A stretch of DNA of 64,000 bases from Diplocarpon mali (lineage: Eukaryota; Ascomycota; Leotiomycetes; Helotiales; Drepanopezizaceae), in the NCBI GenBank assembly GCA_024741835.1, contig JAENRP010000192.1, positions 7,360-71,359 on the forward strand, read 5' to 3'. How positions within the stretch are numbered: the stretch's first letter is position 1; the number at the start of each line of letters is the position of its first letter. A program made the position numbers and the translations under genes. The notes under the pieces are model-generated. The model searched no databases. It worked only from the letters and a program-made list of their open reading frames with translations, and was not told where the DNA came from. Shown piece after piece: positions 1 through 45,960 of the stretch.

Positions 1-2190
1 TTTAAACGACTCTGATTTTATACTACTATTACCCTTAAAAGCAGATAAGGCTTAAGACCGACGCCTCTGAAAGTATAGTTGCTAGCGTACTCTCTTAACT
101 CTAGGAAGACAAGAACTACTACCTAATCAGGTACTTCTTAAAGACTATAAATAATACTAAGCTAAATTACCCTATTTATAATAAGGACCTTTTAGCAATT
201 TTTAGATTATTCTACTAGTATAAGGCAGAGCTACTTAAGGCCTAGAAAATAGAGTATATATATATAGATCATAAAGCCCTTAAGTACTTTATAATAACTA
301 AGGACTTAATAGCCTAGTAGGCTCGCTAGGCAGAGTTCTTCGCTAAATTTAACTTCCTTATTATATACTAAATAGGTATAATAAATATACTAGCTAATAT
401 ACTCTTATATTAAGACTAGGAGCTGACCCCTCTTAAGGCCAGGAAACGAGCTTTACGCTACTAGCAGCTCTTACCTAATAATAAGCTCTTTATAAAAGTA
501 CTTACTACTAAAGGCAATTCCACTCTTAGGCCTGGCCTACGAGTAACAATTATGCCTATTATACTAATAAAGGTACCTGCCGACCTAATGTCTAAGGTCG
601 AGTATAATATAGCGAACTACTATATTATTAATAAGGTTATTCAAGCTAATAAGACCTCCTTTAAGCTATAGAAGTTCTAAGATAAAGCATAAAGCTATAG
701 CCTTAATTACAAACTCAGCTAAGGCAAACTCTTCTTCTAAAGTAGACTTATTATACTATCCTAACCTCCTAAACTATAGATAGCCTTAATTCGTTATATA
801 TATAAGTAACCCTACGTTATATATGCAAGAATTGGAAAGACCAGACTTCTAATAGGAAGAAAATACTACTGGAAAAGCCTTAGCAGCGATATTAGCACTT
901 ATATCTAGAACTATTATTATTCGAAAATGAAAGCTTATTATAATAAGACCCCTAGTTTCCTATAACCCTTGCCAATTCTTAAATAAGCTTATTAACACTT
1001 GATAATGGATTTTATAAAGCTTCCGCTTAATAAACTTGGTTATAATTTTACCTTTGTAATTATCAATAGGTTATTAAAGAAGGCAGTTTCGGTTTTATAT
1101 TATAATTCGATTAATATAAAAGGCCTTATAGAATTGTTTTTAATTCATTAGATATACTATTTTAGCATACTTAACTCGATTCTATTAAATAGAGGCGCCT
1201 AATTCGTCTCTTCCTTTTAAAAAGAGCTCTATCGAATACTAAGTATAAAGGTTAAGCTAACTATAGCCTATAACCTTAATATCAATAGCTAAACTAAGAT
1301 CATAAATCAGTACTTAAAATAATGCCTTAAACCGTTCTACTTATACTATTAAGATAATTAAAGTCGTCTCTTGCCTTTAATAGATATTACTTAATTAACC
1401 TTACTTTATAAATCGCTAGGGCAAATTTCCCCTTTCTAAGTACTAAACGGCTATAAAGCTCGCTCCTCTTAGAATTTAATTAACCTAGAGCCTCTATAGA
1501 TAGCAATTAAAAGAGTAAATTGTAAAATAGCGCTTTATATAACTACTAGAGCTTAAAAAGTAGTCCAATTTGCTTAATCATCTTTATAAGTATAATAGGC
1601 TAAAATGAAACGGCTTGCAGATCTTTACTACTAGCTAATTGATTAGACTATAGGAGATAATATACTAATTAGTATTAAAAATTGGAAACTGGACCGGCCG
1701 AGCCGAAAGCTTTCTAATAAGTAATATAGCTTAATAAAAGTACTAGAAAAGCTAAAAGAAAGCTAAAAGCTACAATTGCCTAATTCGCTCTATTCGATCT
1801 ACCTTATATTCTACTCCTACTTACTGCGAAAATACGTTCCTAACCCTCTATTAGGCTAAGCTTAAGAACCTCTTACCTTAATTAAAGTACTATCAGAATA
1901 AGAGGAGTAGGAGATAGAAGAAATAATTGGATCTTATATTTAAGCTAAGAAGCTCAAATATTAGATTAAGTAGAAAGGAGCTAATAAAGACCTCGAATAG
2001 TACCTATGCTCTAATGCTATAACGGCACTATATGCTATTTGAGATTTCCATTTAAAAAACCCTTAAGTTAAAGGGCTATTAAGGGTGCTATTAAGCTAGC
2101 TTAGGTCATATAATAATAGAGTTGAAAATTATAAGGACTTAGAGGATAATACGCCTATAGATATAACTGCGCAAGCGCAGTTTTTCAAAA
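1..2190 (+). pseudogene. Gypsy A pol remnant: RNase H, integrase, chromodomain-like tail
   Basis: The first 420 bases encode a Ty3-type RNase H with recognisable TDAS, NKDLLAIF and DHKALKYF blocks. Integrase follows from about 560. Its catalytic block near 1010 still reads MDFIKLPL, but the second acidic block reads LLNRGA instead of LLDRGA and the third QTK instead of QTE, so two of the three acidic residues are lost by G-to-A changes. A tail (about 1680-2190) resembles the end of chromodomain-containing Gypsy polyproteins. Many in-frame TAG/TAA codons sit where Gln or Trp is expected. One 23-bp palindrome (522-544) lies in the RNase H to integrase linker. Dead gene. Confidence 0.85.
522..544 (+). 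repeat. Single 23-bp palindrome in Gypsy A
   Basis: Left arm ACTCTTAGGCC, centre T, right arm GGCCTACGAGT; the arms pair with one mismatch. It lies in frame in the RNase H-integrase linker and encodes T-L-R-P-G-L-R-V. Confidence 0.9.
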
Positions 2191-2201
2191 GAGGAAGGTA
2201 G

Positions 2202-2454
2202 TATTATAGCTGCATTATATATAAAATTATATCATATATCGGTTAGGTATATAAAGTCAGGTATACGCTAAGGTAGTAAGGTAGCTAGATCACGTATATA
2301 CTAGTAAAGCACCTGTACTTATTTTAAAGGAGCTCTACTAGAGACTCTCTCTTCTTTATCTTTTCTTTTCTATTATATAATATACCTCTTAAGGTAATAT
2401 AGATAGCGTTACTCGATTATCGCCTTACTATACGCTCTAGAGCTAGTTATAATA
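2202..2454 (+). repeat. 3' LTR of Gypsy A
   Basis: 253 bp, matching the 254-bp LTRs at 3644-3897, 10540-10793, 47026-47279 and (inverted) 47309-47562. The original TGTTACGG start and GTAACA end have decayed to TATTATAG and ATAATA by RIP-type changes. A purine tract lies just upstream. Confidence 0.9.
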
Positions 2455-2483
2455 CTATATATATAAAGCAAATTCTCCTTGAA

Positions 2484-2741
2484 TTGGGCTTTTATATACA
2501 AAATAAGCTCCTATTATATATAGATAATAATAGAGCTTTACTATTAGCTAAAAACCCGCAATTTCACAAACGAATAAAGCATATAGCGGTCAAATATCAC
2601 TATATAAGAGATCTAATATTTAAAGGAGAACTAGACCTTATATATATAAATACACTAAGCCAGAAAGCAGATGGTTTTACTAAACCACTAGCAAAATCCC
2701 AATTTGTCGAATTCCTAAAGCAACTAGCTATTAGCACTTAA
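2484..2741 (+). pseudogene. Copia-1 RNase H C-terminus
   Basis: An open stretch of 85 codons that matches the end of Ty1/Copia polyproteins: a DNNRALLLAKNP block, then HKRIKHIAVKYHYIRDL and the closing ADGFTKPL motif, which in Copia elements is the end of RNase H. It stops a short way before the purine tract and LTR, as expected. It is open only because few RIP-sensitive codons occur here. The upstream gag, integrase and reverse transcriptase are cut off by Gypsy A, so this is not a functional gene. Confidence 0.85.
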
Positions 2742-2771
2742 GCTGCTACTAAAGCTATAATTCAGGAGGCG

Positions 2772-3209
2772 TGTTAAATATAAAATCATAGCTATACTAG
2801 CTAAGTAGGAATAGCTAAGGTGGAGTAGCTATACTAGCTAAGTTGGATTAGAAATCATAGCTATACTAAATTTAGCTATGAACTCTATATCCTAGCTATA
2901 AGTCATAGTTCTATATTTAGCTATGACTAATAGTACTAAGTTTAGCTAAAACTATATTACAAATCAAAGGATTACATATTGCATTATATATACCTATATT
3001 GATTTATAATCTAGTATAACTCTAATATACTAGAAGGTTCTAGAAGCTCAAGATATTTTGTATATATAGATTGCTTTGCTCCTGTAGTTAGGAATTAAGC
3101 CTCCTAAGCCTCCTAAGTCTCCAAGTTCTTCAAAAACTACTACTATTACTTACTACTCAATACTACCTTATACTCTCTTTACCATATCGGCCAGCACTCA
3201 TATTTCACA
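2772..3209 (+). repeat. LTR of Copia-1
   Basis: 438 bp with TGTTAAAT start and TTCACA end. The first 150 bases contain repeated GCTATACTAGCTAAG-like and CATAGCTATAC-like words. A close copy of 427 bp lies at 46409-46835. Confidence 0.85.
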
Positions 3210-3218
3210 AAAGTATTA

Positions 3219-3610
3219 TTATTAGCTTTAATAGATACTAGAGCCTTTAATTACCTATTTTTAAATCGTTCCCTTTCTATATATCTTTTAAAAGCGACTA
3301 GCTTTAAAATTCTTCCTCTTCCAGCCCCTATTCCTATCTATAGATTTTAAAATACTATTTGCGCGCAAGCTATATACTATATACGCTTTCACTTAACAAT
3401 TAATAAAAGGCGTATCTACAACTGCCCTTGGGTTATTCTCAACCTAGGCTAGCGCAATGCTATTATTAGAGTTAAATAGATACGCTGATTCTAACTTAAA
3501 CTTGATCTAAAGGAAAACTAATTTGTATAGCCTTTATAATACCTCCTATCTCTCTAATTCGCAAAGGAAATCATTATTCATCTTCCCCCTTTTAAAGGAC
3601 TTCGGATCCA
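3219..3610 (+). pseudogene. Gypsy C aspartic protease remnant
   Basis: Reads ALIDTRAFNYLFLNRSL, a decayed retropepsin active-site block (family consensus has DTGAS or similar). It continues through a hydrophobic core to a segment around 3560-3600 rich in Pro and Ile. In-frame stops replace Gln and Trp codons. The frame is cut at 3643 by Gypsy B; the reverse transcriptase half resumes after 10798. Confidence 0.65.
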
Positions 3611-3643
3611 ATCCGATTATTAAGCTAATATTAATCGTAGAAA

Positions 3644-3897
3644 TGTTACGGCCGCATTACGTGCATATCACATGAATAGTTATATCATATATCGAAGTCA
3701 GGTGTACGCTAAGGTAGCGAGGTGGCTGGATCACGTGCACGCTAGTGAAGCACCTATACTTATTCTAAAGGAGCTCTACTAAAGACTCTCTCTTCTTCTT
3801 TATCTTTTCTTCTTAATTATATAGCGTACCTCTTAAGGTAATATAGTTAGCGTTATTCGATTCTCGCCTTCTATACGCTTAAAAGTAAGTCGTAATA
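3644..3897 (+). repeat. 5' LTR of Gypsy B
   Basis: 254 bp. Keeps the unmutated TGTTACGGCCGC start; the end has decayed to TAATA. A CACGTG E-box-like word lies inside (GATCACGTGCACG). Confidence 0.9.
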
Positions 3898-5299
3898 TAA
3901 GAAAAGATCAACTCAACCTCTGCTAAGAAGCTTAATATCTACTACCTTTAGAATTGTTATTTCGAACTGCCTTAAGCAACTCAATCTCTCGATCTCGACT
4001 TCTACTATAAACTGCCTTAAGCAACTCGTATATAGCGCCTAGATCTTATTGATTTAGTTTTCAAAAGAAGTTAAATAACCTTCGAATATAAGATTAGCTC
4101 GTTTTTTCGACCCTTTACCTACTCCATTTTGCAAACGGAAATTCACTTTCAATTTCAATTCGAAAAAATTTTTATTTACTATACCCTTGCTTCGCTAGCA
4201 TAAGCTGCTGCCTAGAGTAGTATAATAACTTTTCTCTTCTTAACTTTCTCCCTCCCTTATAAATACTCTATACTACTCTTTTTTATCGACCTTATACTCA
4301 TTAATAATATACTTATTAATAACTCTCCTTATACTCTTTAAAGCTCCTCCTCTTCTGCGAAAGCCTCGAATATAACTCGACTCCTTAAAGACCCCTCCTT
4401 ACGAATAAGTTATCGACCTTCTCTATACTTCCTATTGACCTATACTTATTAACAACTCTCCTTATACTCTTCGAAGCTCCTTACCTCTTCAAAGCTCCTT
4501 ACTCCTTCCTTCGAAACACTCGGATGCAAACTAGGAGACCTATACCTATATATATATATAGAGACTTAATCAGCCTTAATAGGTTATACTATACTATTAG
4601 AGACTAGGTCAACTTTAGTAGAGTGATAAGCTTTAGATCCTCAGACCTTACTTCCTTAGATTTACACTATACCCTTAAGCAACCTTATTATAACTCCTAA
4701 TTAATAAAGAGATATGATCCTAAAGTAAAACCTTCTTTCTTAAGATCTATAAACCTATAATACCTTAATATATATTCTACTAGAAGGCTTTAAGAATGTA
4801 TATAGCTTTGCTTATACTATTCTTCCCTCTTTTAAATAGGTTACTATTTAGCATTAGGTCCCTTTAGACTAAACTAGATAATATAAAGAGAGTTAGTACT
4901 TAAGACCTCTAATCTTATACCACTTAAGAGAAGTGAAAGGTTAACCGCACCTCTACCGGGCCTTACTGCTACTAGTTCACTAGGCCTTACTGCTAACCCT
5001 AGTCCTAAAGATATTCCCCCTCTAGAGCTCACTTAGGAAGCTACCTCCCTTAGTATAGACTTTACTCCTAGGCTTAGCTTATAAGTGGATTCTTAAAATA
5101 TTCCCTTTCTATTGATTAAAGTTAAGGAAGAACTGACGTCTACCCTTACTATATCGGCCCCTCTCTTCTTAACTGCTTAGCAGGCCGAAATCGCAAACCT
5201 TATTAGTGCTACTATAGCTGCCACTTTTTAAAATAATACTACTATCCCTTTTTTCTTAAGTGCTAGCCCTTAAAATACTCGGTCCTTTACCGCCGACTT
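3898..5299 (+). other. Leader and gag 5' region of Gypsy B
   Basis: Starts TAAGAAAAGATC right after the LTR; the first 30 bases are repeated in Gypsy J (47280-47308, inverted). No coding frame could be followed with confidence before about 5300. C/T-rich in 4230-4520. Confidence 0.5.
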
Positions 5300-6835: not shown

Positions 6836-6948
6836 ACTCTTAGTCCTAGCCTACAAGTAAAATCTGCGAATTCGAATCCTACTCCTAGTCCTAGCCTATA
6901 AGTGAAAATTGCAAACTTGAATTCTACTCTTAGTCCTGGCCTATAAGT
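6836..6948 (+). repeat. Three 23-bp palindromes at exact 45-bp period in Gypsy B pol
   Basis: Units at 6836-6858, 6881-6903 and 6926-6948, each beginning ACTC and ending AAGT or a decayed GAGT. The 45-bp period equals 15 codons, giving a peptide minisatellite of the form T-L-S-P-S-L-Q-V-K-x-A-N. The spacer word TCTGCGAATTC is shared with the Copia E cluster at 18421-18803. Confidence 0.9.
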
Positions 6949-8813: not shown

Positions 8814-8881
8814 ACTTATAGGCCCGGCCTATAAGTAACTTTAGTATAGATCAATTCTACTCTTAGGCCTGGCCTATAAGT
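8814..8881 (+). repeat. Two 23-bp palindromes 45 bp apart, RNase H-integrase linker of Gypsy B
   Basis: Units 8814-8836 and 8859-8881. The homologous site in Gypsy A has only one unit (522-544), so one 45-bp repeat was gained or lost between family members without shifting the frame. Confidence 0.9.
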
Positions 8882-10949: not shown

Positions 10950-13900
10950 ACGAATCGACTATATTCTAACCCTATTCGCAAATGCCCTAAAGCTGCGGTT
11001 CCTATTTGCGAAATTAGTACTAATGCCTTTTATTATAATATAAAGCGTAAGGAGACTGAGTTCTTTTAAACTAGTATTTATAAAGTAGATAGGATTTTAA
11101 AGGAAAGATATAAGCTTAAGAATCCTAATATCGAAAAGCTAATTAATAATCGACTCCCGAAATAGTACTAATCTCTAAGATAAGCCTTTTTAAAAAGGGA
11201 TGCAGATACCCTCTCTCCCTATTAGTACTATAATTATAAGATATAGCTAAAAGGGCCTTTGCCTAACGCCTATTTGCCCCTTTACTATCAATCTACTAAG
11301 GAGCTTAAGGTTATAAAGGAGTACTTACTTAAGAATTTAGACAAAGGCTTTATTAAGATAAGTACTAGCCCCTTTGCTTCGCTAGTACTATTTATAAAAA
11401 AGGCCGACGGTAGCCTTCGATTTTGCATAGACTACTAGAAGCTAAACGCACTAACTCAGAAGGACGCTTACCTAATTCTAAGGATAGACAAGCTTTTAAG
11501 GCAAGTATCTAAAGCTAAGATCTTTATAAAATTAGATATTTAAGCCGCTTTTAATTAAATATAAATAGACCTTAAATCAAAGGAATATACTACCTTTTGA
11601 ATAAGGTATAGATCCTATAAATGCAAGGTTCTCCCATTTGGCCTCTATAATAGACCTAGTACTTACTAGTAGTATATAAATGATATTCTTTTAAATTACT
11701 TAGATAATTTTTATATAGCGTATTTAAATGATATTTTAATTTACTTTAAGAATATTAAAGAGCACTAGGGTTATATCGAAAAGGTATTGAAATGACTCTT
11801 AAAGGCTAGCCTTTAAGTAGATATTAAGAAGTGTAAGTTCTATATTACTCAAACTCGATATCTTAGATATATTCTAATGATGACTAAGATCGAACTAGAC
11901 CCTAAGAAGGTCGAACTACTGCGCAATTAGAAGTACTTAAAAACTATTACTAAAATGAAGTCCTACTTAGGATTTTGCGGGTTCTACTAATAATTTATTT
12001 GCAACTTTAGACTAATTGCTAAACCCCTTTCTATTTTAACCTAACTAATAGTACCTTAGGATTAGATAGAAGAATGCCGAATCGCTTTTAAAGAGCTTTG
12101 CAAGTAGTTGCTTTCAATTTAGCAAATTTACTATTTTAACCCTAACTTGCCTATAAAGCTGGAAACTAATACTTCTAATAGCGTTATTACTAGAGTACTT
12201 TCTTAGTAATACTCTAATAAGCAATAGTACCTAATTGGCTTCTATTTACATATACTCTTTAGCTATAAACCTAATTGGGAAATATATAATAAGGAACTCT
12301 TTACTATTATTAAATCCTACTATAAATGGAGACTTAAGCTTATATCACTTAAGGAGCAAATTGATATTTACTCAGATTACTACTCCCTTAAGTACTTTAT
12401 AACTATTAAGGTTCTAACTGCGAAATAATGCTAATAGATGGAATTTTTATTTAATTTCAATTTTCGAATTATATATACTCTTAATAAAGACAATTGGAAG
12501 GCTGATATTCTTAGCTATTAAGAGTAGGATATACCGGTCTATAAATAAGCGAAGCTAGATAGCCGATCTTAGGTTCTAATTTCCTCTACTTAATTAGACC
12601 TTTAAATTAATATTAAACTAGCTAATAAATTTCTTGCCGAATCCGCTAAAGGCACCCTTACCCTAATATTAACTAATACTCCTAATTCGACCTTAAATCG
12701 ACTTAAGGATTCCTTTAATTTAATTAAAAAGCTTTATTAAGATAACTGCGAATCCTTTTAAGAGATTTGCGCTAACCTCTTTAAAAATTACTCCTTAAAA
12801 GATAGATTGCTTTACTTTAAGGAGTATCTTTGCATATGCTATAATACTCCTTTATATACTTATCTAATTTAAGAAGCTTATAACCAACCTTTAAGCGCGC
12901 ACCTTAATAGCTTAAAGACCTATTAGCTTCTCGCTCTTAAGTACTATTAAGTCGGGATAGGTTCGGATTGTAAAAGATTTATTACAAACTATAGACCTTA
13001 TCAATTCTCGCATTCGAAGATAATTAAATAATAAAGCCTTTTGCAGCCCCTTCTTATTCTTAACTATCTTATATAGCATTTGTATATAGATTTTAAGGAT
13101 TTCCCTTTTAATAAATATAGTTTTGATCGAATCTTGGTTTTTATAGACCAGCTTAGTAAAAGTGCTATATCGATCCCTTATTAAAAAGATATCGACGCTT
13201 AAGGAACTGCTTGATTATTCGTTTAATAGATATATTGATTCGGCCATACTTTAAAGATAATTATCTTAGACTAAGGCCCCTAATTCGTCTCTTTATTTTA
13301 AAGAGAGTTCTGCTATATTATTAGTATTAAGATCAAACTTTTTATAGCATATTATAAAGAGACTAATAGCTAAACGGAGATTATAAATAAGTATATTAAT
13401 TTAAGGCTATAGCCTTTTATTAATTACTATTAAGATAATTAGAGTAAACTAATTCTATTAATAGATTATACGCAATCGACTTTCCCTTACGCTTCGATTG
13501 GTATAACCTTATATTAGCTTAAGTATAGAGTTGCACTTTAAATAAGTTAGGATTAGATCTTTCTAAAACCGTCCAGCTTATAAGAGAGATTTAACTAAGC
13601 AAAGGCTAGGCTAGTAGTAGAGAGGATGCACTTAGCCTAGGAAGTAGCGAAAGGCAATATAGAACGCACTTAGGAGAAAATGCAGAAGTTTATAAATTAA
13701 TATTAAAGGGAGATTGATTAGAAACTTAAAGATATAGTCTACCTTTTAATAAAAAATCTTAAGAACTACCGCCTTAATAGGAAACTGGCTAATCAATAGG
13801 ATAGCCCCTTTAAGGTTCTTAAGAAGGTAGGCAATTTATATTAGATTAAGCTGCCTATAGGTTCTATAATATATAATATCTTTATACTAAAGCTATTATT

Positions 13901-14240
13901 TAAAGATCCGTAAAACCCTTTACTAAGTTAGAAACAACCCTAGCCTACTATAGAAAAGATCGCTAAGTAAAAAGAATATAAAGTATTTAAGATACTAGGT
14001 ATACGCCTATCTTAAAGGAACTTAGAGTACTAAGTCAAATGGATTAATTATAACCTTGATTTAAGTTGGTATTATACCTTAAATTTTATAGGATCCTTAT
14101 ATAAGATTCGCAACTTTTATTAGGCCAATCCTATAAAGCTAGGACTACCTTAGAACCTATAACCTTAGCTAAAGGCTTAAGAAAGTAGTATAGATAATTA
14201 TAGTCACTTAAAAGATAATAGGCCAAATGTAAAATAGGTT
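10950..14240 (+). pseudogene. Gypsy C pol remnant: reverse transcriptase to chromodomain-like end
   Basis: Reverse transcriptase about 10960-12110, with the motif reading YLNDILIYF and a following LGFCGFY block. RNase H about 12150-12530 (NKELFTIIKSYYKW, NWKADILS blocks). Integrase about 12640-13900. A C-terminal segment about 13980-14240 reads VKWINYNLDLSWYY, like the chromodomain of Gypsy integrases. This is a different family from Gypsy A/B. The frame runs into an A-rich tract (about 14255-14297), where Gypsy D inserted. Stops are mostly at former Gln or Trp codons. Confidence 0.8.
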
Positions 14241-15159: not shown

Positions 15160-15309
15160 ACTTATAAGGTAGGACTAGGAGTCAAATTTCTTAAAAGATG
15201 TTCTTTTATAAGACCATATAACTTGACTCGCGGTCTAAGCCTAGGAGTCGATTTAAAAACTTTCCTCTATAAGACTATATGACCTAACTCGCAAGGCGGG
15301 CCTAGGAGT
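15160..15309 (-). repeat. Three 23-bp palindromes in the 3' non-coding part of Copia E
   Basis: Units 15160-15182, 15226-15248 and 15287-15309, between the pol stop and the 3' LTR. Start-to-start distances are 66 and 61, so the triplet phase seen in coding clusters is not kept. The same three units occur in Copia F. Confidence 0.85.
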
Positions 15310-18300: not shown

Positions 18301-20340
18301 AGCTGATACCTTAATAGGCTTTCGGCTTCTAATAGCTTTAGTAGCCTATTATTAGTCGATACTTTATTATTAGCAGCTAGAAAGGACTAGTAATAGCAGT
18401 TTAAGGTTTTGCCATTTTCCAATTGCAAGCCTGGCTTAGGAGTCGTTTTTAATAAAACCGCAAGATCTACTCGCAGTCCTGGCTTAAGAGTCGATTTCCT
18501 GGAAATGGCAAGATCCACTCGCGGTCCTAGCTTAGGAGTCGTCTCTAACGAATTCGCGAATTTCACTCGCGGTCCTAGCCTAGGAGTCATTTCTGCGAAT
18601 TTCACTTGCGATCCTGGCCTAAGAGTTGTTATTAGCGAATTTGCAGAATCTACTCGCGGTCCTAGCCTAAGAGTTATTTCTGCTAAATTCACTTATGATC
18701 CTAGCTTAAGAGTCTATCCATTCTCCTTATCCTTACTCAATTGTATTAGGGCGGAGAGTGCACTTTCCTTAAAGGAATTCACTCGTAGGTCCGGCCTAAG
18801 AGTTAATTTCTATAATATTACCTTTAAGATAATATAAAGTCCATCTTTGATTTTAGCCTTAAAGATCACTTTATAGTTATTATTTATAAACTATATAAAT
18901 TGATTATTAAAAACTCTTATATAATTCAACTCTATATAAATCTTGCAATTAGATAAGAGATTAATGCTTAAGTTAAGCATAAGGAGAATATTTTACAAAA
19001 GGAAAGAAACGCTAGCGATATTTATCTCTATTATACCTATTAAGTCCGTATACAACCTTCTACTACTAACCTTAATAGAGTGCCTTTTTATTTTGGTAAG
19101 CGGGCCTTTAAATAGGTAGGATTTATTAGTTATATATGCTATATAACTAGTGTTATTATATTAGTCGGATTCAGGGATCTTACAGAGATCGGCTTTTAAG
19201 ATATAGGCATCTTTATTATAATTATCGTTTGAATTATCAAAAGTGGATTTAGGTTTAGATAATCTACTATTATTATTAAAGGTATCTGCTAAAGTTCTGG
19301 CTAAATAGCCTTTTCCTTTACCTTTCCTTAGTAGTTGCAGCCTTTGGTAGGATAAGGGTAGTTTGCTTCTTAACTTCTGCTTCAATTACTTCTTAATATT
19401 AAAGCTGGCGACTATATCGATCAGTTGCCTTCTAACTTTACAATTAGTAATATTATAAGCACTATTATAGAAGTAGCATTCCTAATGAGCTTAAGGGCTT
19501 ATCCTGCGCTCCTTCCTCTTCTCGGGCTTGTTATTGCCCTATAACGCGGCATTTGCTAATTTAGAATATCCTTTGAGGTCTTGCTCGATAGTTTAAAGGA
19601 GGTCGATCTTCTTATAGATCTTAAGGTTAGGTTAGACGAGAAGAGATTGTTTCGCAATAGCGAACTTAGAAGGGAGGCTATTAAGTAAGAAACTAAAAAG
19701 CTAAGTTTCCTTAAAAGTCATAGCTATCTTAGGATCTGCGGCTCTTACTCTCCTCTTCGCTTTATATAATATAAACTAGGCAAAGTCTATATTTATATCT
19801 ATATCCTTACTATCTTTATCTTTTTTATATTAAAATGAAGTGATCTGCTATAGTAGATACTAGGTATTAAAGGCAGTTATTTAAAAGTATTTTACCTTTA
19901 AAGTATCCTATCTTATCTTTGCGTTATTATAAACTCAAATAAAATCTCAGTCTTTATTACTTAAACCTCTATTGATCTTAAGCTTACATTTAGCTAAGGC
20001 CAGCCTATACTCCTTCTCCTTTTCCACATTTAAAATCTGCCTTTGGGATTCTTAGTTATTATCTACTAAAGCTCTTAGGCTAAGCTTATTTAATATATCT
20101 AGCAAATCCTTAGCAGTTATATTAGCTATTAAAGTAGAAGTAGACGAATCGGTAGAAGGAGTATAAAGGGCTATTCTCGCGTATTTAATAAGTGTCTTTT
20201 AAATCGCTATTTCGATGCCTTTGCTCTTAAAGTAAAGCTCTAAATCGTCGAACTATCGTTGCCAGTTCTTCTAAGAGAGTTAGAGGTCTTTAGACTTAGT
20301 GTTTCGATCGGAATCGGATGCTATTGCCATTTCAAATAGA
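15324..20340 (-). pseudogene. Copia E gag-pol remnant
   Basis: On the minus strand: gag about 20340-19430, with a decayed zinc knuckle near 19440-19480 (CYFYNSAYNITNC, where a CCHC would give Cys and His at the altered places). Protease region about 19080-18830, then a linker made of eight palindromic units (18803-18421). A GAG-pre-integrase-like block (LMYRRFAHLRLEKLKGLYKV) lies at about 18310-18240. Integrase about 18100-17450, reverse transcriptase about 16900-15950, RNase H ending at 15324. The last 64 codons are open and end with the Copia signature KYINITYYFIRNL ... TNRIVANRFIKLL. Plus-strand open stretches at 15682-15873 and 16482-16721 are complements of this pol. Confidence 0.8.
18421..18803 (-). 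repeat. Cluster of eight 23-bp palindromes in Copia E coding frame
   Basis: Units start at 18421, 18469, 18517, 18565, 18604, 18652, 18691 and 18781, each 23 bp. Distances are 48, 48, 48, 39, 48, 39 and 90, all multiples of three. On the sense (minus) strand they encode repeats such as T-P-R-L-G-P-R-V-K-F-A-N-S, in the protease to integrase linker. Both strands are open here (minus 18692-18387, plus 18409-18837). The plus frame is a by-product of the palindromes. Confidence 0.9.
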
Positions 20341-25200: not shown

Positions 25201-27950
25201 TTTTTAAATTATCTATAAGGTATTCCCTTATCTTCTTAAGTTTAAGCTTACTTATTTTATATAAGTAGGCGGTTTTTATTATTAGTAGTAGTCCTTTAAA
25301 CTCGATCTTATAATTGATTAACCGCAATAGAGGTAGTATATTTATAGTACTTTTAGAAAAGCATATGGCTAGGTCGTAGAAGAAGGGTGGTAACTTGGCG
25401 CATAACTCATAGGCCTCCTAAGGTCTTAAAGCGTTATACTTACCAAGCGCGTTAAGTTCTTCCTCTTTTATCGCATGAATTAGGGTCTAGTCTATTCCTA
25501 AGTCTAATAGGCGAACGATAGCTTTGCATCAAGTTTAGATATAAGAGGTTCTCCTATCTCTTTTTTTAAAAAGGTAATCTAGTTTTATAAGCATAATTGA
25601 CCCAATCTTAGTATTAGTCTAGTAAAGGCTAACTCTAAAGGCTAGTCTTAAGATTATTGATATATCTATACTTATTAGTTAAAGGGTATTAATATTAAGT
25701 TCCTCTCTTTATTATTTATAGTTGGCTAGGCGAGTATCGAAGTCCTATATTAGCATATCCTTAGACTTAGTTAAAGGGTCTTTAAGAGCTTTCGGTAGTC
25801 TGAGGATGCTAGTCTTATTAAGCTATTGCTAGTCTTTCCGGTCGGCGTCCTATTAATCTAATTGATAAACGTTAGGCTAATATAGCTTCTTCCTCTTGCA
25901 ATCGATAATTACGTCTTATTTAGCTAACCACTTGCGACCTAAGATTATATTATATAAGCCTAAGTCGGCGGCTAAGAAGAACTGTCCTTTAAAGTCGTAT
26001 TTATCAATTGTAATATTTATTTATATAACCTGTCGAATAGCCTCGCTAGGTTGTCTATTAAATCCTTACAAAGGGATCGGTCTTTTAAGGTAATAAGTCG
26101 ATAGCTTTAGCTATATAATTAAAAAAGGGAGTATCTTACGATTAATAATTCCTAAGGCGTTGGCCCTGCAGTCTATTAGGGCTATTAGGTCGGTATAGCG
26201 CCCTTTCTAATAGAGTCGGCACTAGGTTACGAATTGCTAGCCTCTAATTAGCTTAAATAAGTCGACCGATTTCTAGTATCAGTTGCGCTTTAAGAATAAT
26301 ACTTAAAATCCTAAAGCGATTCATTTCCCGATTCCTTTATATTATCTATTATCTTAGCATTATTCTCTAGTTTATCGCAGCCTTTCTCTACTAGTATAAT
26401 CTTATATTATTTAAGGCAGTCTTAGCTATAGTGCCCTTTTTATCTATACTTATAGCAAGTATTATCGGTCTTTAGGGTTCGGTTGTAAGGGGCGCGTTTA
26501 TTATCTCTAGGTCCTAAAGGTCTAAGGGTAGTGTTTAATTCCTTTTAAGGACGGCTTAAGGCTCGTTTATAGCATATAGGTCCTATTTATTAAAAGGTAG
26601 AGGAGGGCCGGTTAGAAGTTTTAACCTAATACTTATTTCAATTAAAGCGTTATAAGGAGAGGCAGAGTTATCGGTTCTCCTTATTTATAAACCATTCGGC
26701 TAAGTCTCTAGGGTAGTCGAACTTCTAGTTAGAGAGTTGCTTTAGTAAAGACACTTTTACCTTATCCTAGAGCGCCTTATATTAGTTATTAGTCGACTTC
26801 CTTAGTTTAAAAGCTAGTTTATAAAAGTCGGCCTAAAAGGCTATAAAGGGGGTATTTCCTTATTTAAGCTTTATCTAATCGTCTTTAGCTATCTATCGCT
26901 CGGTTTCTTTGCTAACTCTATAGGCCCTTTATAAGATTCGGAATAGCTATATAGCCATTTCGATTTATCTAATAGATCCTTTTATAAGCCGATCTTAGAT
27001 TAAGCTTTAAGCGTCTCCTATTATCAAACTAGCGGTATATGCTAAGGCAACCGATTCGTTAGGGAACTCTATATAATTAACCTTTATCTTCTACTATATA
27101 TCAAAGATCTAGTCCTTGACCTTTATATCCCCTTTACTTAAAAAGGGGTTTAGATCTTTAATCTTTATTAGGCGGACCCGGCGACTAGGTTTAAGGGTTC
27201 GACTCTGTCCTCCGAAGTCAAGGGTATTAGAGTAGGGTTCCCTTTTAATAGGCTATTTAAGCTAAGTGGTAGGAGGATCTCTATAGGGATTTTTAAAGAG
27301 AAGTCGGCTTTATAGAATAAGGGTAGCCGGCTAGCTGACTGAGTTCGTATATTATTGCTCTTTTGCTAAGTTCTTTTAATACGCGCTAATCTCTTAAGTT
27401 GTTCTAAGCTCTTCTTACAGCTATATAGTTATAGGTGCGGTCGCTTCCTTTATCTTTTAAATATAATTATAAAAACTCTAAACTATTAAATCTTATTATT
27501 TAATATATTAGTAGTAGTATTCCATTAGGCGTTCCTTTACTACTAGTCGATCCTTATATATGGCAGATCTCTTGCCCGCTTTGATTCAGAACCTTAGTAA
27601 TATAAAGAAGTCGTCTCTCTTAGCCTTTATATTAGCATAAGAGATAGGTTGGATTAAGGCTTCTTATTTAAAAGAGGTTAATATATCTTTTATATTATAT
27701 AAGGTTTATTTTAAAAAGGGGGCTAGTTAAGGCTTGCTAGTAGAGTCGGCTAGTATAAGGGATTCGTCTTCCGCAGGGTTTTAAAGGGTGTCCTCTCTAA
27801 TTGAAAGGTTACTTAACTTAGGAGGTACTAGTATCGTTATCTTAAGGTTGATTCTCTTAAAGTAAAAGGTCCTTATATGACGTTTTCGTCCTACCAAAGG
27901 CTATAGTTAGGAAATGCCTTAATTCATAGATTCTATAATTTCTTTTAGAG
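22230..27950 (-). pseudogene. Gypsy D gag-pol remnant
   Basis: Read on the minus strand: gag about 27950-26500; a CCHC-like zinc knuckle near 26458-26410 (C-Y-K-Y ... G-H-Y-S ... D-C, one Cys now Tyr); protease about 26300-25850; reverse transcriptase about 25330-24480 with a clear PILFVKKPKGGLQFCIN block near 25150; RNase H about 24450-23990 (EIYNKEILAVILALKK); integrase about 23750-22900; and a C-terminal segment about 22900-22230. In-frame stops are mostly TAG. The short plus-strand open stretch at 25896-26093 is only the complement of the protease region. Confidence 0.8.
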
Positions 27951-37398: not shown

Positions 37399-37403
37399 GT
37401 TTC

Positions 37404-37651: not shown

Positions 37652-37659
37652 CTCTCTTC

Positions 37660-39240
37660 TAAAGACATATAATAAAGCTATTAATAATCTGGAGAATAGA
37701 GTAGTATAGAATAAGGCAATCTAAGAGGAGATAAGTTCTCTTACTACAAATGGCATATAAATAGAGGAACTAATGCTAAAGGATATAAACCTAGTTTTAA
37801 TAAAGTGGGTCTTTATAATTAAAATATATATAGATAGGACCCTGGAACTTTATAAGGCAAGGCTTATAGCTAAGGGCTTCTCCTAATAGTATAGAGAAGA
37901 CTACTTCGATATATTTGCGCTAATAGTCTGTATAAATACCCTTTATATATTTATAGTAATAGTAGCCGCTAAGAACTTTAAATACAGATAGTACAATATT
38001 AAAAATGCTTCACTAAAGCGATTATAAAAGAACGGATTTTTCTCTCCTAACCTAACGGTATTCCTATATGCGCTAGCCACTCTTTCTATATACTCTATAG
38101 TATCTATAGGCTTAAATAATCAGCCTATAATTAGAACCTCTTATATAGCTCTACTCTAATAGAAATAGGATTTATTTAAAGCCTAGCTAACCCTTATCTA
38201 TTTACCTATATTAAGTATAGAATCAAGTTGCTACTATATATTAATAATATTACTATAGCTATAAAAACAATTACTCAATTGGATTGGTTCTTTATAATAA
38301 TTCGGAAACGTTTTAATACTAAAGATCTAAGGGGAATTTATAAGATCCTTAGCATTTGTATTATAAGGAACCGCTCTACTTAAGAACTCTAATTAGATTA
38401 AGAGTAGTATATTAAGAAGATCCTAGACCAAATAGGACTCTCTACTTATACTCCTAACTTTAAGCCAAAGTGTACTCTAATTGAAGGAAAGTATGATAAG
38501 TTAAAGCCTACTAATAAAAATAAATAAAGAAGAGATCTGAAGAAGTACTAATAGGATATTAGAGCAATTATATATACTATAGTATATATAAGACTAGATA
38601 TTGCCTTTATTATTAAGCAACTTAATTAGAACCTAAAGGATCCGACAATTTAATATAAGAATATAATCAAGCGACTTAGAAGGTACCTTCAATCGATAAT
38701 CATATAGAAGGTAAGATATAGATTAATAAAATATATAAGTGCAAAGCTTAAAGTATATACCAATTCTAACTAGGCAAATATAAAAGGTCGGAAAAGTATA
38801 TTTAAAAGCGTAGTAATACTATATAGTAGACCTATATTATAAGGAAGTAGGAAGTAAAAATCAGTAGCTACTATAAGCACTAAGGCCGAATATATATTAA
38901 TATTATTAAATTATAAGCAAGGATTATAAATCGCTTAAGTTTTAAAAGATATAGGTTTCGCTAAGTATATTAAATAAGATAGGAACTGTATTAATCTTTA
39001 AGTAGATAATATAAAGGCAATTATACTTATAAAGAATCCACACTTATATAAGCGATTAAAATATATTAATATTACCTATTACTTTATTTGCAACCTTATT
39101 ATAAAGAATAAGTTATTAATTACCTATATCCTAACCAATTAAATAATAGCAGATGGATTTATAAAGCTACTAGAGATAGTTACAAAGTTTAAAGCGTTTA
39201 AAGATATACTAGAGTTATAGAAGATAGTAAGGGCTTAATA
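37660..39240 (+). pseudogene. Copia F reverse transcriptase-RNase H remnant
   Basis: Begins with KTYNKAINNLENRVV, continues through the reverse transcriptase entry block (LIKWVFIIKIYIDRTLELYKARLIAKGF near 37797-37880) and ends with a Copia RNase H closing at about 39240. Stops are mainly TAG or TAA at Gln and Trp sites. The order and spacing match Copia E. Confidence 0.8.
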
Positions 39241-39252
39241 GGCTTAAGGATA

Positions 39253-39402
39253 ACTCCTAGGCCCGCCTTGCGAATTAGGTCATATAATCTTATAAAGGAA
39301 AGTTTTTTAAATCGACTCCTAGGCCTAGACCGCGAGTCAAGTCATATAGTCTTATAAAAGAACGCTTTTAGGAAAATTGACTCCTAGTCCTACCTTATAA
39401 GT
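39253..39402 (+). repeat. Three 23-bp palindromes in 3' non-coding part of Copia F
   Basis: Units 39253-39275, 39315-39337 and 39380-39402, orthologous to the three units at 15160-15309 in Copia E. Distances 62 and 65; no triplet phase. Confidence 0.85.
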
Positions 39403-39541
39403 AGAGTTTAGTAATTTCAATAGAGGTTGCTATTAATTAATTGTTTTTAATTTAAAGAGATACTTAAGAGTTAGATTAGCGTAAAAGGATAGTTATTATT
39501 TTCCCAACTATAGGTCAATTAGAGTAAGGTCTAAGTAAGGG

Positions 39542-39736
39542 TATTAAGATAGGTAATATAGCTATTACTCTAATGTATTATCATATGACCCTACTACTTA
39601 ATCAATAGGATATTAACACATATATAGCTATAAGGAAGAAAGGGGTAACCTTCCTTCCCTAACTCTTACTAATATATCGACTATCGACCTTTAGAAGTTT
39701 CTATTACCTACTGCGCCGACTTACTTAAGCTTAATA
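39542..39736 (+). repeat. 3' LTR of Copia F
   Basis: 195 bp, inverted relative to the two Copia E LTRs. Starts TATTAAGATAGG and ends GCTTAATA. Confidence 0.9.
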
Positions 39737-40165
39737 AATTCGCTTAATTCTCTCTTTAAGTATAATAGGCTAAGATGAAACGGCTCGCAGACCTCTACCG
39801 CTAGCTAATTAATTAGACTATAGGTAATAATATACTAATTAGTATTAAAAACTGGAAACTCGACCAGCTGAGCCGAAAGCTCTCCGATAAGTAGTACGGC
39901 CTAATAAAAGTACTTAAAAAGCTAAGGGAAAGTTAAAAGCTCTAATTGCTTAAATCCCTTTACTTAATCTACCTTATATTCTACTCTCATTTACTATATA
40001 AATACGTTCCTAACTTATTACTAAGTTAGGTTTAGAAGCCTCTTACGCTAATTAAAGTACTATTAGAATAAAAGGAGTAAGAGATCGAAAAAGTAATTGG
40101 ATCTTATATTTAAGTTAAGAAGCTCAAATATTAGATTAAATAAAGAAGAGCTAATAAAGACCTTA
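39737..40165 (+). pseudogene. Gypsy H integrase C-terminal remnant
   Basis: Matches the A/B family from the integrase end through the KLDRPSRKLS-like block to the segment where Copia I entered. Contains RIP-type stops. Continues at 46275 after Copia I. Confidence 0.8.
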
Positions 40166-40849: not shown

Positions 40850-41945
40850 AAAGGACTATAGCTAGTAGAGGAATAAGGTTTTGAACCTTGCAAAGTCAAA
40901 CGCCTTAACTATATATCTTTATATAAAAGCTAAAATATATACTCTACCTAAGGTTGACTTATAGGACTATTCCATTACTCTTAAGGAAAGGGATAATTAG
41001 GTTAGATAGGAAGCTAAAGAATCTTAGATAAAGCTTACTATTATATTTAATTGCAAACTAGGCCTATTAGCTTATATAAAAGGCGATAAATCTACTTTAG
41101 ATATATAGGAAGCTCTTTAAAAATAATATAAAGGATTTGGAATAGTGCTTGAATATAATGTTATATAGACCTATATTACTATTAAATATAATGACTTTAA
41201 CTCACTTAAAGCTTACGTTATCGCCTTTAGGCTTTCAATTACTAAATTGGAAGCTCTTAACTCTACTCCTCTCTCTTATTAGTACCCTATTATATTTATT
41301 GCTAGCTATTCTAATAGATGGCCTATTTAGGTAGATTAATAATACTTTAACCTTCGCTTAGCTATAGCAGCTAAACGGAAATCAAAGATCACGCTTAAAG
41401 CTCTTATTAAAGATATTACTAATAAAGCTCAAGCCTTATAGAGTTTAAAAATGAATAGAACTGTCTTATATAATAATAAATTAGATAGTAAGCCATATTC
41501 CTCTAATTATAAGAAGTCAGAAAATAAGAGAGGTTTTAAAGACTTAAAGAAGAGCACCTTTAGGAATACTACTACTTCCCTTAACTCTTCCTATCCTTAT
41601 TGCAAGCAACTAGAGTTATACTATAAGGCAGAAGATTGCTTTGCAATTAACAAATCGAAAAGAGAGGCCTAGGAAAAGGATTTAGGGAAAAAGTATATAT
41701 TCTATTACCTTAAAGGCAAGGACGATAAGTCCTTGCTATTATTATTACTAAAAGGCAAGAAGCCTTTTAAGAAGATTTAAAAGGAAGATAAAGAGTCAGA
41801 TAATGACCTCTTTAGGCATACTATGCTATTACTAACCCTAGGGCTAATTCTCACTCGCGAGCTAGGCCTAGGAGTTAATTCCTCATTAGGAGGCAACTCC
41901 TTTCTAAGGCCAATTTCTACTCGCGGGCCGGGCTTAGGAGTTAGT
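40850..41945 (+). pseudogene. Copia I gag remnant with zinc knuckle and protease linker
   Basis: Helical gag-like frame with few stops. The last 74 codons are open (41451-41672) and include a zinc knuckle that reads YPYCKQLELYYKAEDC, where a normal CCHC would have Cys at the first position and His at the third. An acidic and basic linker follows with two palindromic units at 41853 and 41919. Downstream the protease begins near 41990 and is broken by the TRIM at 42223. Inactive. Confidence 0.75.
41853..41941 (+). repeat. Two 23-bp palindromes in the gag-protease linker of Copia I
   Basis: Units 41853-41875 and 41919-41941, 66 bp apart (22 codons). Here the sense peptide is T-R-G-P-G-L-G-V, the opposite orientation to the pair at 43836, as a palindrome allows. 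Confidence 0.85.
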
Positions 41946-42222: not shown

Positions 42223-42307
42223 TGTTGTGCATAATACCGCTCGGCCAAAATGTGAATCCACACCTTAGGGCGCGTACTAGCATATTTAGCCTATTTTCTA
42301 TATAACA
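42223..42307. repeat. Left 85-bp LTR of the TRIM-like element
   Basis: Shares the block from ATACCGCTCGGCC to GCCTATTTTCT with the right copy without a visible change; differences are confined to G/A and C/T sites near the ends. Confidence 0.87.
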
Positions 42308-42636
42308 TACCCCCTAGGTCGCCGGAAGAACAGTTTTTCCGGCGGCCTAAGTACTAGCCTAGTCTGTGGTAGCGTAGATGTGGCGCATAGACCGCTAAGC
42401 CAATAGAAAATAGGTGGTCGGAAGGGCCGGAATGCATTTTTCTTCGGCCATACATCGGAGGTCGTTTTACTTAAATCTGTCGAAACTTCTGTTGATGCAG
42501 TCGAAACCGAGTATGATCATTGCTGAATTCTTTGAAAAGTAGTTTACTAGTAGAACTTCGAAGCGAGAAAAGTCGGCTAAACCTCGCGCAAGAGGAATGC
42601 GAAAAGATTTATCGCTACGCTTATAGGGCTTATAAC

Positions 42637-42721
42637 TGTTATATATAATACCGCTCGGCCAAAATGTGAATCCACACCTTAGGGCGCGTACTAGCATATT
42701 TAGCCTATTTTCTGCATAATA
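42637..42721. repeat. Right 85-bp LTR of the TRIM-like element
   Basis: Same 85-bp length as the left copy; start decayed to TGTTATATAT, end TGCATAATA. Confidence 0.87.
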
Positions 42722-42726
42722 TAAAC

Positions 42727-45700
42727 TTAATAAAATCAAAGGCTTCTATCGAAATAGCAAGCTATTTTTATCTAATAAGAAGGAAATTTACACTATTGAT
42801 AATAATATATATATTAATAAGGAATAGCCTTCTACTAACTCCTTTAGTTATATAAGTGGATATGCTCTTTTAGCTGCTATTAAGAATAGACCTCTTGATA
42901 TTAAGCTCTAGCACTATCGATTAGGCTATACTAGCTTATAAATAGTTAGAAAGACTTAATCTGCTATTATTAATATGCAGATTAAGGAAATAAAATCAAG
43001 GAAGACGCGAATCTGCGCTCCTTATAAGAAAGGCAGACCTTTCTAATATATTAATAAACGTTCAGCTCGCCCTCGACTTACAAAGGCACTTGATAAGCTA
43101 TACGTCGATATAGTTCATCTAAAGCCAATTGGCCTTAATAGTTATAAATACGCTTCTATCTTCACTTACGTAATTATAATAGCTAGATAGGGATAGACCT
43201 ATATAAATAAATCTAATACCTTTAAGGCAAATAAGAAGATGATCAGCCTTTTATAAACTTAGTATAATTATATAATCAAGCGGTAGAGAACTAATAGAGG
43301 CAAGGAGTACTCTCTTATATAGATGCGAATACTTATAGAAAACCTTAGTATAATTTTAAAGGAATCTACTTTATATATATTAGAATAAGATAGTAGATTA
43401 GAACGATTAATTCGTATACTAATAGAAAAGTTACAAATAGCAATAATTGATTAAAATATCCCCTCCTTTCTCTAGCCTTACCTCCTTCTTTTAGTAATAT
43501 ATATTACTAATCTTATTGCCTCTAATATCCTAGGTAGCAAGACTCTATATAGGGTCTTTTAAGATAATATTAAGCCTAATAAGTCTTATACTCCTTTAGT
43601 CAAGCATCTTTAAGTACTAGGCTATTGCATCTATATGCTAATTGAGAAAGAAAAGCGAACTTAAAGTAATAAACTCGCTTTAAAAGCAGAAGTAGGTACT
43701 CTTATCGGATTTGATAGCAGAAGTATCTATTAGATCTATATGCTATTGCAATTAAAGGAGAAGATTATTTGATCTTTTTATATTTGATTTGATAAAGACG
43801 GCTTAATTATAGAGCTGTAATTAAGGGGTGATTTCACTCTTAGGCTGGGCCTGCGAGTCACTTCTTAAAATGATATTTTCACTCCTAGGCCAGGACCGCA
43901 AGTTAATTCTGACTCTTACGATGATTTCACTCTTAGGCCAGGACCGCGAGTCAATTCTTTTAATTTAAAAGAAGCTAATAAAGCTGCGCTTCTAACTCTA
44001 AGAAAGAGAGGAAGACCTCTTGGTTTAAAGAACAAGGCTCACCCTTAGCCTTTTAAAAAGAGAGCTATTCGCTTTACTGCTTTTAGATTCAAAGTTGATA
44101 ACTCTAATAATAAGAAAGCCTATTTAGGCACCTTCTATATGGCCTTACTTGACTCTTTATACTCAAATGACCTAAAAACAGTTGAATAAGCCCTCTCTTA
44201 CGCTAACGCTAACAAATGGCGATTTATAATCAACTTTAAGTATAATTCCCTTACTTATAAGGATATATAGGTAGTAGTAAAACGCTTAGAACTCTTTAAA
44301 TATAATAGAGTACTTAGATTAAGGCTTATCTTTAAAATAAAAAGAGATTAAAATAGGGAAATCTCTTAATAGAAGGTCAGATTTATTATATAAGGCTATA
44401 TATAATAATAAGGTCGAGATTATAATTAAACCTTTGCTAGCGTTTGCAAATCTGCTATTTAAAAGATTGCAATTGCGCTTATAGCTCTTTATAACTTTAA
44501 GCTAGATCAGTTTAATATTAAGATAGCTTTCCTTAATTTAAAAGCTGACTTTAATATCTATATCAAATTACCTCTTAGATATACTTAAGATAAGGTCGTT
44601 CTTTTACCTTAAGACTACTGTCTTAAGCTTCTTAAGGCCTTATATAGCTTAAAGCAATCTCTATAACTATAGTAAGAAAAGCTATAGTCTAAGCTATAAA
44701 AGCTTGATTTTCATCCTTTTAATACTAACAATTGCATATATATTAACTGCGCCTTTCGGATTCTTATTATTACCTATATTAACGACTTCCTTATAATAGT
44801 AAAGAAGGGTAATATATATAATAAGTTTAAAAGAGATCTTCGCAACCTCTTTAAAATTATAAGTAGCGAACTAGCTAACTACTTCTTAAGAGTATATATA
44901 GTTAGAGATTGATAAAATAGAATGATCTCGCTTTATTAAGACGCCTATATTAATAAGGTTTTTAAACGTTTTTATATAACTAATTATAAGAGCGTACTAA
45001 CGCCTTTTGCTAATAGCTATAAAGTTCATATAGTCAAATTTGAAGGCTAAGCCACTTTATAGGAAGTAAAGCTATACTAAGAGATCTATAGTTCTTTATA
45101 GTACCTTATATACTATATGCATTAGGATATACTATACTACTGCTCTATTCTTAGCAAATTCCTTACTAACCCTTTACTATAATATATAGTAGCTTTAAAA
45201 TGAGTTTTATAATACTTATAAGGAATGCGATTCTATTATACTACCTTTAAAAGTAAAACAATTGACCTAAAGCTTTAGAAATTGCATAGCTACTGCGATT
45301 CTGATTAAGCAGGCGATAGAGGAACTAAGGCCTCTTATTCTAAGGCCGTCTTCTTCCTTAATAATAGTATAATTACTGCCTCCTTTAAGCGATAAACTAT
45401 CGTCGCTCTCTTATCTATAAAGGTAGAGTATATCGCTATATATAAATTCGTATAAGAAGCCTCTTAGATACGCCAGGTACTTAAGGAAATAGGCTATACT
45501 AGCGATAACGCTACTAAAGTCGAGATGATCTGCAACAATTAAAGAGCTCTTTATCTTACTAAAAACCCCGAATATTATTAGAGAATAAAGCATATTGATA
45601 TCAAGTTCTATTATATTTAGCAAGAGCTTTAGAAAAGCTATTTGAACCTTTAATATACAAATACTAAAGATAATGCCGCTAATAGCCTTACTAAGAGCTT

Positions 45701-45760
45701 AAATAGCTCTAACTATGCCACCTTTATCAAATTGTTAAATATAAAGGTTCTATACCTCGA
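42727..45760 (+). pseudogene. Copia I integrase-reverse transcriptase-RNase H remnant
   Basis: Pre-integrase block with HYRLGY near 42915. Integrase follows from about 43080 (LDKLYVDIVHLKPI with the first catalytic Asp). A linker at about 43830-43960 holds three palindromes encoding F-T-L-R-P-G-P-R-V repeats. Reverse transcriptase about 44200-45000 (LDQFNIKIAFLNLKADF, with a YINDFLIIVKK motif in place of YVDD). RNase H about 45280-45730 (SIKVEYIAIYKF, then RIKHIDIKFYYI and ANSLTKSL). The frame is continuous, with stops mainly at RIP-prone codons. The minus open stretch 45623-45411 is its complement. Confidence 0.82.
43836..43951 (+). repeat. Three 23-bp palindromes in the integrase-reverse transcriptase linker of Copia I
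   Basis: Units 43836-43858, 43881-43903 and 43929-43951; distances 45 and 48, both multiples of three. Each encodes T-(L/P)-R-(L/P)-G-x-(R/Q)-V. Confidence 0.9.
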
Positions 45761-45960
45761 TTAAGGGGTGATTTTTTTTATACCTCTATTATAAGGTGAT
45801 TTTTTTTACACTTCTATTAAAAGGTGATTTTTTTTTACTCCTAGGCCAGGCCCGCGAGTTGATTTTAACTTACTAAGGGGTGGATTTCCTACTCTAGAGT
45901 AGAGCGTGCTAGCGAACTCTACTCTATTTCCCATATCTGCAGGTTGATTTTTTATACGAA
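45753..45960 (+). repeat. T-tract minisatellite plus one palindrome near the 3' end of Copia I
   Basis: About four imperfect repeats of AAGGGGTGATTTTTTT-type sequence with a period near 34-36 bp, ending with a 23-bp palindrome (45837-45859). They lie just after the RNase H frame. Confidence 0.6.

Follow-up and report, generated by a model that had tools for sequence, protein, structure and literature searches.

In-frame selfish palindromes have been described for bacteria and an archaeon (PMC2996958). Rickettsia palindromic elements (RPE) and Wolbachia palindromic repeats consist of palindromic DNA lying in frame within unrelated open reading frames (ORFs), encode a conserved peptide and are tolerated in unstructured parts (PMC10969869, PMC2996958). 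Palindromic amphipathic repeat coding elements (PARCEL) are protein repeats in tandem, encoded by DNA with dyad symmetry, that in some taxa are associated with mobile elements (PMC2996958). Yeast mitochondrial GC clusters, such as GC42, are short, GC-rich mobile palindromes for which cut-and-paste or RNA-mediated copying has been proposed (PMC4478555); inverted repeats also occur in the coding genes of Nematomorpha mitochondria, where a phase with paired third codon positions has been described (PMC6649704), and fungal GalEa Copia elements carry a conserved 9-bp hairpin palindrome at one place beside the long terminal repeat (LTR) (PMC5445492). Here, we describe a 23-bp near-palindrome (the unit) present 27 times in a 64,000-nucleotide stretch of the fungus Diplocarpon mali (assembly GCA_024741835.1, contig JAENRP010000192.1, C192:7360-71359; hereafter, the window). 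Units lie in several unrelated Gypsy and Copia retrotransposons, in one codon phase where a coding frame could be fixed, and very probably represent a coding palindrome that has been transferred between elements.

The little-mutated form of the unit reads ACTC-S-CGGGCC-N-GGCCCG-S-GAGT and has a weak RAWTY motif on both sides. Window units were located by an IUPAC consensus scan and then a weight matrix scan. The original prediction, made from the window's sequence alone, had counted 26 units in Gypsy A/B (1+3+2), Copia E (8+3), Copia F (3) and Copia I (2+3+1); all were recovered, together with one uncounted unit at 5064-5086. On both strands of window positions 1-48000, a consensus tolerant of repeat-induced point mutation (RIP) gave 18 exact matches and 25 with at most one mismatch, a scan in which one palindrome may be counted twice, and 100 dinucleotide shuffles of the same positions averaged 0.00 and 0.01 matches, respectively. 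Across all 676 contigs of the assembly (49.37 Mb), the RIP-tolerant 23-letter pattern produced 5,318 exact matches (2,748 + 2,570), which are copies rather than independent insertions, and the reversed-pattern control produced 0. A place counted on one strand cannot also be counted on the other, as a double match would require position 5 to be purine and pyrimidine at once. An excess over expectation, on which the original prediction depended, is therefore present. A less mutated pattern had 441 genome matches, and the little-mutated form, ACTCGCGGGCCNGGCCCGGGAGT, had 21 exact matches and 94 with at most one mismatch (counts in which one place appears on both strands; control, 0). The pattern ACTCNYRGGYCNNRGCCTANGAGT, mistakenly 24 letters long, gave 0 matches. 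Exact scans with one unit pattern gave 0 matches in bacterial and archaeal contigs and 0 in viral contigs. As the unit is near-palindromic, its orientation depends chiefly on whether positions 5 and 19 are G or C, and the variants G5 + C19 and C5 + G19 were both found.

Twenty stretches of 10 kb were fetched for holding units and, with the window, formed a 264-kb sample. It contained 307 matches of at least 12 bits on both strands, against 1 in the reversed sequence, and merging of orientations left 189 units. When their 150-bp flanks were clustered with the units masked, 20 flank clusters were obtained. Host identity was established by comparing translations, with X at stops, against Pfam, and four families were identified: Gypsy A (window 1-10.8 kb, + strand), Copia E (window 14.8-20.9 kb, − strand, plus the stretch 37.7-39.7 kb), Copia I (window 40.1-46.3 kb, + strand) and Gypsy J (locus L032, + strand). 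Across the sample, units occur in at least two Gypsy and at least two Copia families and in both orientations. The two orientations also coexist within one element, in L032 (units 4938−, 5947+, 7863+ and 8025−) and in the window's Copia I (41853+, 43836− and 45837−), which rules out a single-peptide explanation in one orientation. The claim that the host families are several and unrelated holds, except that Copia F is not separate: window 37652-39738 aligns with 2.1 kb of Copia E at 89% identity, so the window has three host families. The further claim, that the units occupy non-homologous places and are not explained by descent of their hosts, agrees with the 20 flank clusters, with the mixed orientation in one element and with the relatives lacking the insert described below. 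Unit scans found none in two Gypsy-like stretches whose DNA is 58-60% identical to Gypsy A (window 11180-14224 and 23976-25366); these are probably Gypsy C and Gypsy D of the original prediction (11.2-14.2 kb and 24.0-25.4 kb), in which no unit had been seen.

Loci L044 and L048 (clusters 12-15) hold a unit-bearing element of a type that Pfam did not recognise. The Pfam search of L044 returned a single weak match below the cut-off, in its Copia E part, and none for the other unit-bearing element. A diverged copy in L048 retains both units of the aligned part.

At all seven sites where the host frame is fixed by domains or a protein record, the unit lies within the ORF in phase 0 and encodes eight residues, T[RP]GPGP[GR]V or close to it (7/7). 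These sites are the Gypsy A gag N-terminus, protease-reverse transcriptase (RT) linker and RNaseH-integrase (IN) linker; the Copia I gag-protease (PR) and IN-RT linkers; the Copia E site upstream of IN; and the protein P0127. Most are linkers between domains (gag, protease, integrase and RT), and several of the Pfam matches used for the frame calls (SH3, integrase) are below the curated cut-off. The Copia I units 43836-43951 share a frame with the preceding SH3 and the following RVT_2 domain, units 41853 and 41919 keep the register of these, and less mutated Copia I copies are open, by eye, from the gag side to a protease-like motif. In Copia E, 8/8 units of the array are in the SH3/RVT_2 frame, with both domains on one side of the array; the array lies upstream of integrase SH3 and RT and, by eye, between protease and GAG-pre-integrase. 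Gypsy A RNaseH and integrase are in one frame, which also includes the interposed unit(s), one in copy 1 and two in copy 2. In the less mutated locus L083, protease and the start of RT share a frame interrupted by one stop, and the D. coronariae protein P0122 (860 aa) reads through protease-RT, with TPGPGPRV at residues 52, 602 and 617. Three Gypsy J sites also agree with phase 0, their frame being open by eye. When stops were counted in 19 clusters (one further cluster lacked a usable copy), the phase-0 frame had the fewest in 17, the exceptions being cluster 6 (Gypsy J 5' untranslated region [UTR]) and cluster 7 (Gypsy J gag, a near tie). Array clusters are favoured in this test by neighbouring units, and the cleaner figure is that for single-unit clusters outside supposed UTRs, in which phase 0 was lowest in 10/11. 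Supposed UTR sites were recognised by eye in three elements: past the RNaseH end in Copia E (L073), at the 3' end of Copia I and ahead of gag in Gypsy J. The in-frame, phase-locked state of coding-region units and the secondary nature of the arrays go beyond the original prediction. The phase lock needs peptide selection or another cause not yet found. Ribosomal skipping of the 2A type (NPGP) was considered and set aside because of a poor fit, judged by eye, of the residues upstream.

In coding arrays, the distance between adjacent units is 39, 45, 48, 54, 66, 78 or 90 bp and is divisible by 3 in 98/98 cases; in the Copia E 3'UTR array it is divisible by 3 in 7/17. Members of a family differ in unit number (7-10 in Copia E, 2-4 in Gypsy A protease-RT and 1-2 in RNaseH-IN), array length changes by whole codons and one linker holds up to 10 units. 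The array copies look like secondary tandem expansions of 45, 48 or 39 bp kept in frame, and it is single units, and arrays taken as wholes, that occupy unrelated places. In L072 and L083, a half-unit-like ACTCCCGTGGCC, perhaps a truncated copy, follows the second unit beside the protease-RT array. When the protein collection was queried with the peptide array, the single match was a hypothetical protein of D. coronariae. The D. coronariae record P0121, annotated as a "hypothetical protein," is similar to the Copia E array in translation and is probably a mis-annotation because it lies on the strand opposite to the element's pol.

Relatives of the host elements were compared at the protein level. 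A search with the Gypsy A protease-RT region found one D. coronariae protein and six others, five of which were aligned (P0128, with 24% coverage, was left out). Four of these five, P0123-P0126, have no octapeptide in the protease-RT linker. P0127, at 42% identity by BLASTP and 47% as aligned, carries TREPGPRV farther on in the linker (residue 241), and the unit at 3278 in locus L047 translates in phase 0 to the identical octapeptide. At the RNaseH-IN linker, which aligns poorly, no octapeptide was found in the three relatives that reach it (P0126-P0128). A loose octapeptide pattern matched 3/128 proteins as a raw count, namely P0121, P0122 and P0127. At the DNA level, 57 joined-flank matches, with 40/172 candidates scored, either covered one side or exceeded the query in length, the excess being 24 bp in the shortest full-length ones. 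The contrast between empty and filled sites that the original prediction had proposed to look for was thus found among protein-level relatives, but the DNA search returned only filled-length or one-sided matches. The distant Gypsy A homologue at window 12-14 kb was tried as a DNA-level empty site and rejected, being too diverged (57.7%) to place the junction.

The length of exactly 23 bp given in the original prediction describes the strongly conserved centre but leaves out the RAWTY motif, which lies one base outside the unit on both sides. RAWTY is exact at this offset in 7/23 left and 11/23 right flanks, and at offsets other than 1 and 2 it occurs in at most 2 left and at most 4 right flanks; each of the 23 flanks represents the majority letters of a context, 14/37 contexts (array-internal, near-duplicate or cut) having been dropped before the count. 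In our reading, this margin either belongs to a longer palindrome of lower conservation, perhaps 35 bp in total, or reflects a target preference. No inverted matching of flanks beyond the common motif was found within contexts.

Taken as a whole, our preferred reading, to which we assign a probability of about 0.6, is that a coding micro-palindrome was passed between retrotransposons by reverse transcription, filtered by reading frame, tandemly expanded, multiplied and mutated by RIP. The reverse transcriptase would pause at the unit hairpin during reverse transcription (the little-mutated form has computed energies of −15.4 kcal/mol as RNA and −9.9 as DNA), and a template switch at the short AT-rich margins would place a unit copy elsewhere; this reverse-transcriptase step is tentative, and somewhat doubtful even in our own estimate. 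Selection on the host ORF would then retain only tolerated insertions, meaning those in linkers, of whole codons and in the phase encoding the Gly-Pro octapeptide. Arrays would arise by local tandem duplication, host retrotransposition would multiply each founder to thousands and RIP would mutate the copies. A very small mobile palindrome, one of the possibilities raised in the original prediction, fits best, although movement itself was not seen.

Several observations weigh against this reading. Hosts were identified as LTR retrotransposons, in four families, for the clusters other than 12-19. A common decayed form of the unit shows no advantage in folding over shuffles (z about 0), there is no clear target-site duplication (for direct repeats of period 30-32, permutation p was 0.01-0.02 before correction for the 17 periods) and a genome search with the joined flanks of the Copia I gag-PR site found no base-precise empty site. 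The window's decayed Gypsy A protease-RT units (6836-6926) are out of the RT frame, in phase 2. The stop-count test is unspecific, as phase 0 was also lowest, by small margins, in 2/3 UTR clusters, and it gave a near tie with another phase for Gypsy J gag, which is phase 0 by eye. Finally, third codon positions 3 and 21 have zero transversions in 141 coding units, so the DNA itself is conserved and not the peptide alone.

The main rival is a DNA-level mini-element moved in trans by a putative nuclease or transposase, much as has been proposed for the yeast mitochondrial GC clusters, with a symmetric AT-rich target (RAWTYN|NRAWTY) and no part for reverse transcriptase. In favour of such an element are the symmetry of the flank motif, set off by one base on either side, the presence of both orientations, the units in supposed UTRs and the weak direct-repeat signal of period 30-32. 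We nevertheless consider it unlikely, as all four identified host families are LTR retrotransposons, no clear target duplication accompanies the units and, among the matches listed for the RIP-tolerant pattern (contigs C1-C9), none is on C2 or C5. Alternatively, the octapeptide would be a functional module, a polyprotein linker or protease cleavage site repeatedly gained and kept by selection, with the palindrome as a by-product. Coding sites are mostly at domain boundaries and in a single codon phase, and retroviral protease reads about 8 residues, which the octapeptide length fits. RIP does not cause transversions, and in the 141 coding-cluster units these fall in 103/846 third-position cells (without the free position 12) versus 17/2,256 elsewhere. 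However, few founders account for the third-position events, which lie at positions 9 and 15; the 36 UTR units have 17 transversions at third positions and 20 at others. Units are also found in supposed UTRs of three elements, a linker may hold up to 10 copies and the conservation of third positions 3 and 21 points to a common DNA origin rather than convergence, making this explanation improbable. Shared DNA ancestry plus some peptide constraint is indicated by the substitutions, although we place little weight on it.

Gain by several families of a cis-acting DNA or RNA site, for protein binding, insulation or RNA dimerisation, would be compatible with the palindrome, the 45-48 bp arrays and the hairpin of the little-mutated form. 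It is a very remote prospect, leaving the codon phase and whole-codon spacing unexplained, and the position within the element varies by family. An ordinary cause, such as a minisatellite, low complexity, RIP artefact or common host ancestry, has next to no probability: array copy number does vary, but shuffled and reversed controls are about 0, contexts are unrelated and little-mutated copies exist. Many units are dispersed singly in unrelated contexts, whereas a minisatellite would consist of a head-to-tail tandem array only. The window's units are set out in Table 1.

Table 1. The 27 units of the window, with host element, unit strand and material used for comparison
Host and site	Position	Strand	Compared with
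Gypsy A copy 1, RNaseH-integrase linker, in frame (TLRPGLRV on + strand)	522..544	−	
Gypsy A gag N-terminus	5064..5086	−	P0122 TPGPGPRV at aa 52, by eye
Gypsy A protease-RT linker, unit in 3-unit array	6836..6858	−	L083 and P0122
Gypsy A protease-RT linker, unit in 3-unit array	6881..6903	−	
Gypsy A protease-RT linker, unit in 3-unit array	6926..6948	−	
Gypsy A copy 2, RNaseH-IN linker, extra unit; perfect 23-bp palindrome	8814..8836	−	
Gypsy A copy 2, unit at place equivalent to 522	8859..8881	−	
Copia E 3'UTR (host on − strand)	15160..15182	+	L073
Copia E 3'UTR	15226..15248	+	
Copia E 3'UTR	15287..15309	+	
Copia E 8-unit in-frame array, degenerate first unit	18421..18443	+	
Copia E 8-unit array, unit	18469..18491	+	
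Copia E 8-unit array, unit	18517..18539	+	
Copia E 8-unit array, unit	18565..18587	+	
Copia E 8-unit array, unit	18604..18626	+	
Copia E 8-unit array, unit	18652..18674	+	
Copia E 8-unit array, unit	18691..18713	+	
Copia E 8-unit array, last unit	18781..18803	+	
Second Copia E stretch ("Copia F"), 3'UTR unit	39253..39275	−	
Second Copia E stretch ("Copia F"), 3'UTR unit	39315..39337	−	
Second Copia E stretch ("Copia F"), 3'UTR unit	39380..39402	−	
Copia I gag-protease linker, in frame	41853..41875	+	
Copia I gag-protease linker, second unit, in frame (TRGPGLGV)	41919..41941	+	
Copia I integrase(SH3)-RT linker, in frame on + strand	43836..43858	−	
Copia I integrase(SH3)-RT linker, unit	43881..43903	−	
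Copia I integrase(SH3)-RT linker, unit	43929..43951	−	
Copia I, probably 3'UTR (past RNaseH end, by eye)	45837..45859	−	

The window's Copia I copy has about 500 bp extra at 42224-42721, and loci L040 and L042 run on there almost without a break, so the extra stretch looks like a small later insertion in Copia I. Beyond the elements, a gene-rich flank at window 49631-57531 contains BUD22 (55093-56580, − strand) and other long ORFs, and unit scans found none there. The best match of the window's BUD22 besides itself is from Diplocarpon rosae (73%). Two D. coronariae protein records are 79% and 96% identical to retroelement pieces of the window. Together these similarities suggest the apple-blotch fungus D. 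coronariae, or a very close relative, as the source. A published D. coronariae assembly is reported to have about 34% repeats, mostly Copia and Ty3 elements, and the term "palindrom" is absent from the main text of that article (PMC11527701).

If the preferred reading is correct, a 23-bp sequence present in thousands of copies moves between unrelated retroelements, and exchange between Gypsy and Copia elements would be shown. To our knowledge, the unit would then be one of the smallest mobile sequences. How such palindromes spread would become testable, given the little-mutated copies, the many contexts and the several assemblies available for the species. A literature search mostly of papers outside subscription found no description of short coding palindromes from fungal retrotransposons and no in-frame selfish palindromes listed for nuclear genomes. 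We rate the chances as even that this is the first nuclear, eukaryotic protein-coding selfish palindrome, a sequence of 23-35 bp that would travel among unrelated LTR retrotransposon families, and perhaps species, use the retrotransposons as hosts and copying machinery, and land or survive in one codon phase.

Among mobile palindromes of similar size, the yeast GC clusters are the nearest found; they are mitochondrial and 42 nt long, with a putative AG target duplication (PMC4478555), whereas the unit lies in frame in ORFs on contigs that carry nuclear genes and LTR elements. PARCEL is a 25-residue, variable, tandem amphipathic motif in ORFs of unknown function (PMC2996958), in contrast to the 8-residue, often single unit with its near-fixed DNA. 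The Nematomorpha palindromes are perfect and up to 284 bp long, and a dispersed common sequence is not mentioned in the accessible text (PMC6649704). The GalEa hairpin, at 9 bp and one place, is set apart from the unit by description only (PMC5445492). Miniature inverted-repeat transposable elements (MITEs) are likewise inverted-repeat, non-autonomous and dispersed; the unit is far shorter, shows no clear target duplication and has no known parent transposon, none having been searched for. The closest likeness is to the RPE and Wolbachia repeats, with which the unit shares palindromic DNA in frame within unrelated ORFs (PMC10969869, PMC2996958). Compared by description and not by sequence, RPE are about 150 bp long and occupy bacterial host genes, whereas the unit has a 23-bp core with a margin to about 35 bp, lies in the polyproteins of fungal nuclear LTR retrotransposons, keeps to one codon phase and is tandemly expanded. 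The unit resembles the bacterial palindromic elements while belonging to none of the families tested; the kind is already known from bacteria, and what is new is the setting, a coding palindrome in nuclear fungal LTR retrotransposons.

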